Assembly (NCBI RefSeq): GCF_030758935.1
Contig: NZ_CP132333.1
Coordinates: forward strand, 806,992-870,991
Origin: Geothrix sp. PMB-07
Lineage (GTDB): Bacteria > Acidobacteriota > Holophagae > Holophagales > Holophagaceae
Reading direction: 5' to 3'
Length of the DNA stretch: 64,000 nucleotides
Shown here: in pieces, positions 1-61,996 of the stretch
Numbering within the stretch: the stretch's first letter is position 1
Layout: the number at the start of each line of letters is the position of its first letter
Notes under the pieces: model-generated
What the model was told of the DNA's origin: nothing
Seen by the model: the letters and a program-made list of their open reading frames with translations, nothing else
Databases searched by the model: none
Made by a program: the position numbers and the translations under genes

Positions 1-402
1 GCGCATGGAGACGAGCTTGATCTTCTCGTGGATGAAGTCGTCGAACTCCAGCGGGTCCAGCTCGTCGCGGCCCTCGGCTTCGGCCTTCTTGTTGTAGGCC
101 AGGCGCAGGAAGGAGGCGTTGCTCACGCCGGGCACCTCGATGGGATGCTGGAAGCCCATGAAGAGGCCAGCCCGCGCGCGGGCATCGGCTTCCATCTCAA
201 AGAGGTTCTGGCCCTCGAAGAGGACTTCGCCGCCCGTCACTTCATAGGAGGGATGGCCCGCCAGCACCTTGCCCAGGGTGGACTTCCCGGAGCCGTTGGG
301 GCCCATGATGGCGTGGATCTCCCCGGCCTTGATCTCCAGATCGATGCCCTTCAGCACCGGCGTGCCGTTGATTGAAGCGGTGAGGTTTTTAATCGAGAGC
401 AT
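1..402 (-). CDS. sufC: SufC, Fe-S cluster assembly ATPase (C-terminus beyond window)
   Basis: This is the N-terminal 134 codons of an ABC-type ATPase that partners SufB in building Fe-S clusters in the cytosol. It begins MLSIKNLTASINGTPVLKGI and carries a complete Walker A motif, GPNGSGKST, near residue 33. The SufC-typical stretch GLFMGFQHPIEVPGVSN follows near residue 75. The signature motif, Walker B and the rest lie beyond the left edge. It is the second gene of a minus-strand operon, 96 bp after sufB, and that gap is filled by a long inverted repeat. The identity follows from the sequence plus the SufB neighbour. Confidence 0.93.
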   Translation of the reverse strand, partial: MLSIKNLTASINGTPVLKGIDLEIKAGEIHAIMGPNGSGKSTLGKVLAGHPSYEVTGGEVLFEGQNLFEMEADARARAGLFMGFQHPIEVPGVSNASFLRLAYNKKAEAEGRDELDPLEFDDFIHEKIKLVSMR

Positions 403-498: not shown

Positions 499-1938
499 TC
501 ATCCCACACTTCCTTCGAGTTTCAGCGAGAGCAGCTTGGTGGCTTCCACGGCGAATTCCATGGGGAGTTCGCGGAAGACGTCCTTGCAGAAGCCGTTGAT
601 GATCATGCTGATGGCTTCCTCGGCGGGGATGCCGCGCTGCTGGAAGTAGAAGAGCTGCTCTTCGCCGATCTTGCTGGTGGTGGCTTCGTGCTCCACCCGG
701 GCGCTGCGGTTCTGCACCTCGATGTAGGGGAAGGTGCTGGCACTGCAGGTCTGGCCGATGAGCATGGAGTCGCATTGGCTGAAGTTGCGGGCGCCCTCGG
801 CCTTGGGCTGGATCTTCACTAAGCCGCGGTAGCTGTTGGAGCTGTCACCGGCGCTGATGCCCTTGCTGACGATGGTGCTCTTGGTGTTGCGGCCGATGTG
901 CACCATCTTGGTGCCGGTGTCGGCCTGCTGCTTGTGGTTGGTGAGGGCCACGCTGTAGAACTCGCCGATGCTGTCGTCGCCCAGCAGGATGCAGCTGGGG
1001 TACTTCCAGGTGATGGCACTGCCGGTCTCCACCTGGGTCCAGCTGATGCGGGAGCCCTGGCCCTTGCAGAGGCCGCGCTTGGTCACGAAGTTGAAGATGC
1101 CGCCCACGCCATCCTTGTCGCCGGCATACCAGTTCTGCACGGTGCTGTATTTGATGGAGGCGTGATCGAGGGCCACCAGTTCCACCACCGCCGCATGCAG
1201 CTGGTTGGTGTCGAATTGGGGGGCCGTGCAGCCCTCCAGGTAGCTGACACTGGCGCCTTCCTCGGCCACGATGAGCGTGCGCTCGAACTGGCCCGATTCC
1301 TTGTTGTTGATGCGGAAGTAGGTGCTCAGGTCCATGGGGCAGGTGACGCCCTTGGGAATGAAGACGAAGCTGCCGTCCGTGAACACCGCACTGTTGAGCG
1401 CCGCGTAGAAGTTGTCGGCGGCGGGCACCACGCTGCCCAGGTATTTCTTGATCAGTTCGGGGTGTTCCTTTACGGCTTCGCTGAAGCTGCAGAAGATGAT
1501 CCCCACGGCGGCCAGCTTTTCCTTGTAGGTGGTGGTCACGCTGACGGAATCAAAGACCACGTCCACGGCCACACCCGCCAGGGAGGCCTGCTCGTTGATG
1601 GGCACGCCCAGCTTTTCAAAGGTACGCAGCAGCTCCGGATCCACCTCGTCCATGGAGGCGTACTTGGGTGCCTTCGCCTTCGGTGCGCTGTAGTAGACGA
1701 TCTTCTGGAAGTCAGGCCGGGGGTAGTGCACGTTGGCCCACTCGGGCTCGGTCAGGGTCAGCCAGTGGCGGTAGGCCTTGAGGCGGAACTCCAGCAGCCA
1801 ATCCGGCTCGCCCTTCTTGGCGGAGATGAAGCGGATCACGTCCTCGTTCAGGCCGGGCGCAACGCTGTCCGCCTCGATGTCCGTCACGAAGCCGTACTTG
1901 TATTCCTGGCTGGTGACCACGTTCAAGGTGGTGCTCAT
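499..1938 (-). CDS. sufB: SufB, Fe-S cluster scaffold protein
   Basis: This 479-residue protein is the scaffold on which the SufBCD complex assembles Fe-S clusters, taking sulfur from a SufS-type desulfurase. Its length is normal for SufB. The C-terminal beta-helix motif region [19 protein letters not shown] and the preceding [16 protein letters not shown] segment are typical, and [11 protein letters not shown] lies near the end. ATG at 1938 has a GGGAG ribosome site six bases upstream. It is the first gene of the operon, so no Rrf2 or sufR regulator gene precedes it here. An IscR-like operator overlaps its promoter. sufD and sufS are not visible and may follow sufC outside the window. Confidence 0.96.
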
Positions 1939-1959: not shown

Positions 1960-1987
1960 ATTCTGGAATCTCGACTAAAATTGTCAA
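1960..1987 (-). promoter_or_regulatory. sigma70-type promoter of suf operon
   Basis: On the minus strand a perfect -35 TTGACA (1982-1987) is followed after 16 bp by CAGAAT (1960-1965), a 4/6 match to the -10 consensus. Initiation would be near 1953, leaving a leader of about 15 nt with the GGGAG ribosome site just before sufB. The -35 box lies inside the IscR-like dyad. Confidence 0.6.
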
Positions 1988-1991: not shown

Positions 1992-2019
1992 ATAGGCTGT
2001 GGCCTCGGTCACGAGCGCC

Positions 2020-61196: not shown

Positions 61197-61907
61197 TCAG
61201 CTCTGGCGGGCCGCTTCCATGGCGGTTGCGCGCGGATGGAGCACCTGGTTCTCCAGGAAGATGTGGAGGTGGAGATCCGCCTCCAGTTCCTTCAACCCTT
61301 CGTAGAGCGCACGGAAAGTGGCGCAGCCATCCGCGGGAACGGTGTAATCGCTGGTGCGGACCCGCAGCTTGACCAGCAGCCCGCCGACGATCTCGTGCTC
61401 GGATTCCATGACACGGATGGGGCTCTGCACGGTGCCGAAGCAGGCCTGGGCCGGGGCGCCGGATTCCATGGAGCGGATGAAGGGGAAGAGGATCTGCTCC
61501 TCCTTGAGCAGGTGCGGCATGAGGTCCATGGAGAGCTCCTGGAAGAGGTCGAACACCTCGTCCAGCTCGGGATGGTTTTCGCTGTGGGCGCCCAGCACCT
61601 TCTCCAGCAGCAGCTCCAGCCGTGGCAATTCGGAACGCAGGTAGGCGTGGTGGGTGGCCTCAATGTGGGCCATGAGCTCAGTCAGGGAAGCCTCTGCCCA
61701 GTTCCGGGCCGGGGCCGCGCTGGAATCGCCCAAGGTCGCCAGACCCGCGAGCACCTCGGCGGGGGAACGTCCGGCCACCTCGCAGGCCTCGCGCAGGGAG
61801 CGGTGCCCGCCGCAGCAGTAATCCACGCCCTGGCCTTCCAGGTACCGCATGGTTTCAGGGTGGGCCAGCACCAGCGCGCCAACCTTGGTGTCGAGATTGA
61901 GGGTCAT
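61197..61907 (-). CDS. Di-iron protein for repair of Fe-S clusters (RIC/YtfE/ScdA family)
   Basis: The 236-residue protein repairs Fe-S clusters damaged by oxidation or nitric oxide. It has an N-terminal ScdA domain with DYCCGGHRSLREAC and a hemerythrin-like four-helix domain whose metal ligands appear in HHAYLRSELPRLE, LLKEEQILFPF, MESEHEIVGG and HLHIFLENQVLHPRA. ATG 61907 has GGAGG six bases upstream. An IscR-like dyad sharing CGACTAAAA-NN-GTC with the suf operator lies about 70 bp upstream, which fits nitrosative or Fe-S stress control by an Rrf2 regulator. Confidence 0.93.
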   Translation of the reverse strand: MTLNLDTKVGALVLAHPETMRYLEGQGVDYCCGGHRSLREACEVAGRSPAEVLAGLATLGDSSAAPARNWAEASLTELMAHIEATHHAYLRSELPRLELLLEKVLGAHSENHPELDEVFDLFQELSMDLMPHLLKEEQILFPFIRSMESGAPAQACFGTVQSPIRVMESEHEIVGGLLVKLRVRTSDYTVPADGCATFRALYEGLKELEADLHLHIFLENQVLHPRATAMEAARQS

Positions 61908-61971
61908 GGTGCCTCCGCGGGAATGGCTCCCTGCCTCCACGATGGGGGGCCTGGGCAGTGCATGGGGTCAC

Positions 61972-61996
61972 ATATACGACTAAAAAGGTCTGATTT
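61972..61996. promoter_or_regulatory. Rrf2/IscR-like operator upstream of RIC gene
   Basis: The core CGACTAAAAAGGTC (61977-61990) has GAC-N7-GTC spacing and matches the suf operator at 12 of 14 core positions (CGACTAAAA-NN-GTC). Flanks are less symmetrical than at suf. It lies 65-90 bp upstream of the RIC start on the minus strand, within a locally AT-rich promoter region. Confidence 0.5.

Follow-up and report, generated by a model that had tools for sequence, protein, structure and literature searches.

The element that precedes the ric gene of Geothrix sp. PMB-07 is probably an operator of the Rrf2 family, of the IscR/RisR kind, that unites the suf genes, ric, a peroxiredoxin gene (prx) and most likely the gene of the regulator itself. 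The sites, their conservation, their placement relative to promoter-like hexamers and the gene families that they precede were observed directly. Judging from the sequence comparison, we regard the underlying small, conserved regulon of the IscR/RisR kind as real. The window analysed here is the whole stretch of 64,000 nucleotides, G000:C1:806992-870991, within the 4.24-Mb single-contig genome of this organism.

The predicted operator core and its background frequency

The predicted core before ric reads GACCTTTTTAGTC towards the gene, lies at 61978..61990 on the minus strand and is conserved in the genus. The 14-mer at this site (61977-61990) is CGACTAAAAAGGTC on the plus strand and GACCTTTTTAGTCG towards ric. 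The predicted core before sufB, GACAATTTTAGTC, is located at 1973..1985 on the minus strand, where it overlaps a TTGACA -35-like hexamer; its 14-mer (1972-1985) is CGACTAAAATTGTC, or GACAATTTTAGTCG when read towards sufB. The first-pass annotation had proposed that the two sites share CGACTAAAA-NN-GTC and that both genes serve Fe-S homeostasis, and both proposals are borne out. With zero mismatches, this pattern has two matches in the window, and the same two are the sole exact matches in the whole genome. The gene ric (61197..61907, minus strand, coding start 61907) encodes an iron-sulfur cluster repair di-iron protein with ScdA_N and hemerythrin domains (TIGR03652, PF01814, PF04405), and its product exceeds the TIGR03652 equivalog cut-off for RIC (227.6 bits against 204.7). 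The gene sufB (499..1938, minus strand) is identified by PF01458 (SUFBD_core, E 9.8e-78) and by a TIGR01980 match at G000:C1:807520-808896. It is followed by the start of an ABC ATPase gene cut by the window edge (1..402, minus strand; PF00005, E 7.1e-15), which we infer to be sufC from its place after sufB.

A genome-wide search for GAC-N7-GTC had been suggested as a check, with occurrence at random frequency counting against the idea. In this form the check was negative: the window contains eight copies of the bare motif where 14.6 are expected, and allowing up to two mismatches in the 14-mer yields 56 matches in the genome, compared with 185 for the reversed pattern. The loose motif is unenriched, and GAC-N7-GTC as written is too loose for finding members. 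The stricter class GACNNWTTTRGTC, in contrast, has 71 matches in 37 genus genomes compared with 33 for the reversed control, and in 53 cases the match is located no more than 300 bp ahead of sufB (35 cases), ric (14) or prx (4). The 18 matches found elsewhere are fewer than those of the reversed control. Defined this strictly, the motif exceeds background, and the random frequency that would have counted against the idea was not observed. Within the single Geothrix genome, KACNNWTTTRGTC has five matches (prx, suf, ric and two non-promoter places), the same number as its reversed control; since this count is not above background, the argument is carried by the genus and by gene context.

Two one-mismatch copies of the 14-mer exist in the genome, one of them before prx, which encodes an AhpC/TSA peroxiredoxin. 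The other (L004) lies within a long ORF and was rejected as a regulon member, as were a match in a 298-aa ORF that is glycosyltransferase-like by eye (L019), a match inside another ORF (L223) and a match lying where two convergent ORFs face each other with their 3' ends (L224). Orthologous promoters share common descent, so the conservation counts given below are not independent, and some of the matrices include the very sites that they recover. When one promoter was left out, a 31-bp matrix scored chance sites in AT-rich DNA, and the omitted ric (in its own orientation) and prx sites were absent from the best nine; the shared element that we claim is therefore the core alone. A covariance model returned three matches only, all of them training sites, and did not report the site before the candidate regulator gene rrf2.

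Conservation at the suf, ric and prx promoters

The suf promoter is the most widely retained context. TTGAC-N7-GTC and the block that follows it are kept in all 14 genus suf loci read, and the element occupies the same place in all 13 more distant loci read, ending in GTC in eight and in GTA in five. For ric, 30 loci among the matches listed were read, 28 from the genus and two from other families. A common promoter type is present in 23 of the 28 genus loci listed, and the other five have unrelated upstream DNA. The core is exact in 14 of these 23 promoters, carries one or two base changes in six and is degenerate in three. Among 11 more distant loci, GAC-N7-GTC precedes ric in four, three of which continue with one base and then GATATT, and it is absent from seven. 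The expectation that the motif would be conserved upstream of RIC orthologues thus holds for 20 of the 23 genus promoters of the same type and fails for the five remaining genus loci and for most of the distant ones. The more distant relatives appear to represent other genera, as indicated by 68-78% identity and by record titles. Given that the suf element is found in 13/13 distant loci and the ric box in 4/11, the link to suf is the older and wider one, and that to ric is chiefly a genus-level trait. A regular expression for Rrf2 genes recognised none beside the five RIC loci that lack the box. By their coordinates, two of these five nonetheless have an Rrf2 match lying divergently beside ric (G005:C94:11603-12724 and G034:C235:893-2014), as if it were a local ric regulator there. 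The prx promoter carries KAC-N7-GTC in 30/30 genus loci listed (GAC in four, TAC in 26), and in all 30 a distance of 9-11 bp separates the box from a conserved promoter-like element further downstream, TTGANN-N17-TAGCCTG.

The ric promoter also has a second conserved dyad, GTGACCCCATGCAC (61958..61971, minus strand), of the CRP/FNR-like form GTG-N8-CAC; the right half of this copy is weak. GTG-N8-CAC follows the ric box in 22 of the 23 genus promoters of the same type. Upstream of the suf operator, a GTG-N8-CAC dyad is found at 1999..2012 on the minus strand (GTGACCGAGGCCAC) and recurs in 12 of 14 genus suf loci; before prx it occurs in one of the 30 genus loci listed. Throughout the genome, TGTGA-N6-TCACA with up to one mismatch occurs at 40 places, compared with 17 for the control. 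The presence of the dyad in both the ric and suf promoters, this genomic enrichment and a TGTGA-N6-TCACA copy directly before a CRP/FNR-family gene (site 1501-1516 of L330, G000:C1:397750-400765) make it likely that ric and suf receive an input of the CRP/FNR type. Five TGTGA-N6-TCACA places lie around three Rrf2 genes in the 399-427 kb region. A different, FNR/DNR-like dyad, TTGA-N6-TCAA, is present approximately 70-150 bp upstream in 10 of 11 distant ric promoters (L284, L286-L293, L301) and is missing from all 30 loci in the first RIC set.

These observations bear on two other explanations of the ric site. According to one, an HcpR-like activator of the CRP/FNR type is the main controller of ric and uses GTG-N8-CAC, and the GAC-N7-GTC beside it makes little difference. 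The dyad is indeed steadier than the exact Rrf2 core (22/23 against 14/23 ric promoters), its consensus is enriched in the genome, and the distant ric promoters mostly carry TTGA-N6-TCAA. HcpR, a member of the CRP/FNR family, is described in certain bacteria as a regulator of the ric orthologue dnrN, acting through wTGTGAnnnnnnTCACAw (PMC1274295), which the second dyad of ric resembles in sequence. Such an activator would, however, leave unexplained that a 13-bp core is kept beside the dyad and recurs before suf and prx, and the dyad copy in the Geothrix genome is weak in its right half. We consider this explanation unlikely; it is also compatible with an Rrf2 operator, and both can hold together. 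Even less credit is due to the idea that two AT-rich, -35-like regions match by coincidence. In its favour, GAC falls at suf and rrf2 inside a TTGAC hexamer, itself the -35 consensus, and the loose motif is unenriched. Yet the GTC half and the seven intervening bases are conserved as well, GAC lies outside any TTGAC hexamer at ric and prx, and 53 of 71 matches in the 37 genomes precede just three gene families, so that we regard a coincidence as very improbable.

The candidate Rrf2 regulator

The Geothrix genome encodes seven Rrf2 proteins, and we infer that the likely binder of the box is the one encoded by rrf2 at G000:C1:1735149-1735652, outside the window. A matrix trained on the suf, ric and prx sites alone scores 17.1 and 12.9 (in the two orientations) before this gene and at most 10.0 before the other six Rrf2 loci; in a 172-kb sample of the genome, AT-rich DNA contains chance sites that score up to 22.6, more than the rrf2 site. 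The rrf2 promoter carries CTTGAC-N7-[AC]TCA[AG]GAAT in 30/30 genus loci listed, and among 19 more distant rrf2 promoters TTGAC-N7-GTC occurs in five and TTGAC-N7-NTC in 12. When 170 TTGAC-led 18-mers of the sample were ranked, the rrf2 site came third, behind suf and the coding match in L019; on the same ranking, 18 more distant versions of the site came third in 13 cases, fourth in one and lower in four. A strong orthologue of the candidate is present in 35 of the 37 genus genomes; the two genomes that lack it have a completeness of 71% and 80%. The closest named protein records are from Geothrix and Holophagaceae, with up to 98% identity. Two metagenome-assembled records titled Deltaproteobacteria (L199) and Bacillota (L200) contain a Holophagaceae-type rrf2 with 78% and 74% identity, respectively, and these titles may be wrong. 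The earlier suggestion that one Rrf2 regulator may govern both suf and ric gains support from the third predicted target, prx, and from the related element before rrf2.

The candidate clearly belongs to the Rrf2 superfamily (TIGR00738, 113.2 bits, cut-off 73.3; PF02082, 108.8 bits, cut-off 30). The best named model is that of IscR (TIGR02010), with a score of 122.8 bits that nonetheless stays far below the equivalog cut-off of 207.55; the scores for CymR (NF047409, 99 bits, cut-off 195) and NsrR (NF008240, 37 bits, cut-off 182) are likewise below their cut-offs. In the PDB, the most similar sequences belong to IscR chains, and the IscR DNA-contact residues E43, Q44 and R59 are invariant in 17/17 aligned rows. 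The cluster ligands C92, C98, C104 and H107 are absent in all 16 Holophagaceae rows when these are compared with L219, a row that bears the cysteines, and with the sequence of the IscR structure 4hf0. All 16 rows instead have the C-terminal motif C-X7-C-X2-C-X-C (C133-X7-C141-X2-C144-X-C146) together with C71; an additional near-terminal cysteine is missing in L213 and L212. A structure model of the candidate has a mean pLDDT of 74.9, with values below 50 at residues 135-143 and 162-168, and therefore provides no reliable tail geometry for the C-terminal cysteines.

The regulon could also be real and be read by a different Rrf2 protein encoded in the genome, such as one with C-X6-C-X5-C that senses clusters in the manner of RisR or NsrR. 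This motif is present in the canonical loop of five of the seven Rrf2 proteins and places three cysteines where RisR and IscR, both of which bind such sites, use them. In sister families, moreover, an Rrf2 gene adjoins suf, recognisable by regular expression in four of 11 stretches. Against this, none of the other six Rrf2 genes has an upstream matrix score that approaches that of the candidate (10.0 at best, compared with 17.1). Across 20 promoters of relatives from four other Rrf2 groups (not those of L034 and L037), GAC-N7-GTC occurs in one (L344), and each of the four groups shows its own, different shared promoter sequence. A different binder thus seems to us rather improbable. NsrR, which elsewhere controls RIC genes, was rejected as the reader of the ric site in the Geothrix genome, since the box is common to suf and the best of the seven Rrf2 proteins scores 54.7 against the cut-off of 182. 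In four loci from other families of the class (L315, L316, L317, L322), an Rrf2 gene with canonical-loop cysteines lies upstream of sufB; the promoters of these Rrf2 genes carry a sequence other than GAC-N7-GTC.

Proposed mode of control and relation to known systems

Returning to the candidate rrf2 product as the binder, we propose the following hypothetical scheme, in which the direction of control and the signal are deduced in the same way as the identity of the binder: (i) the Rrf2 protein would bind as a dimer to the imperfect palindrome GAC-N7-GTC; (ii) at suf and rrf2, where the box covers the TTGAC -35-like hexamer, the bound protein would exclude RNA polymerase; (iii) when clusters become scarce or damaged, binding would be lost, and assembly, repair and the regulator itself would be raised; (iv) at prx, where the box lies upstream of the -35-like element, the bound protein could also aid the polymerase, a position that could suit activation; (v) at ric, where the box stands beside the CRP/FNR-like dyad, two inputs would act on repair. 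In the ric promoter, no -35/-10 pair could be assigned convincingly. The position over TTGAC at suf and rrf2 fits repression and resembles that of Myxococcus xanthus RisR, whose footprinted site is reported as Tt/gGAC-N7-GTCCt/a over the -35 and -10 elements of suf (PMC9973013).

Control of suf by an Rrf2 protein through GAC-N7-GTC is already known from RisR and from the type-1 sites of IscR. Like the system proposed here, RisR acts on suf via an imperfect GAC-N7-GTC palindrome at the promoter, and its Rrf2 group, IS6, is described as including Acidobacteria (PMC9973013). A RisR-type GAC-N7-GTC lies over the suf promoter in 14/14 genus loci. This likeness concerns the operator and the suf target. 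As described in the same source, RisR has three cluster cysteines, Cys92, Cys102 and Cys108, which the candidate lacks, and controls isc and suf, whereas in Geothrix ric and prx carry the site. The type-1 IscR sequence of Escherichia coli and Pseudomonas aeruginosa, ATASYYGACTRWWWYAGTCRRSTAT, contains GACT-N5-AGTC and hence GAC-N7-GTC; such sites coincide in part with the polymerase site and serve autoregulation, and site B of P. aeruginosa IscR, ATAGTTGACCTAATTACTCGGATAA, resembles the form found in the Geothrix rrf2 promoter (PMC3899308). Compared with ATASYYGACTRWWWYAGTCRRSTAT, the Geothrix promoters have the GAC-N7-GTC core, with flanks that match in part and vary between promoters. In contrast to IscR, whose [2Fe-2S] cluster is reported to be ligated by C92, C98, C104 and H107 (PMC3899308), the candidate has none of these ligands, and its gene lies outside any isc operon.

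For ric, the closest parallel is the control of ytfE/dnrN, the ric orthologue, by the Rrf2 protein NsrR (PMC1274295), with the difference that ric in Geothrix carries the same box as suf rather than an NsrR site of its own. A peroxiredoxin gene has likewise been reported as an IscR target (PMC11475020). The system concerned belongs to another phylum and has a regulator other than that of Geothrix. A separate paper on this kind of control reportedly deals with prx3 of Vibrio vulnificus. In a limited search, we found no literature joining Geothrix with Rrf2 or IscR, and the combination of Rrf2, Acidobacteria and the suf operon led to the RisR paper only.

The new aspect, as far as sequence comparison can indicate, is a joint suf/ric/prx regulon under a regulator without canonical ligands. 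In the sources cited, ric-type genes are placed under the NO regulators NsrR and HcpR (PMC1274295) and suf under IscR or RisR; here, in an acidobacterial lineage, a single conserved operator would link cluster assembly and repair with the scavenging of peroxide. We tentatively go one step further, to a possibility that we hold to be somewhat less probable than its opposite: the candidate might be a Holophagaceae master regulator in charge of building and repairing Fe-S clusters and of defence against peroxide. Such a regulator would have given up the canonical cluster site and would sense instead through the C-X7-C-X2-C-X-C motif, relocated to its C-terminus; once a cluster or metal is lost there, or the thiols are oxidised, the operators of suf, prx, ric and its own gene would be freed. 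If this is true, the C-terminal four-cysteine motif would constitute a new sensing module for the Rrf2 family. The conserved C-terminal cysteines, in a protein without the sensing cysteines of IscR, make a second mode of Fe-S or redox sensing in Rrf2 proteins testable. The candidate rrf2 gene also overlaps a TtcA-like tRNA thiolation gene (524-1507 and 1396-1902 in L031). TtcA is an Fe-S enzyme, and the TtcA-like gene product is placed right at the model cut-off (272.1 bits against 272).
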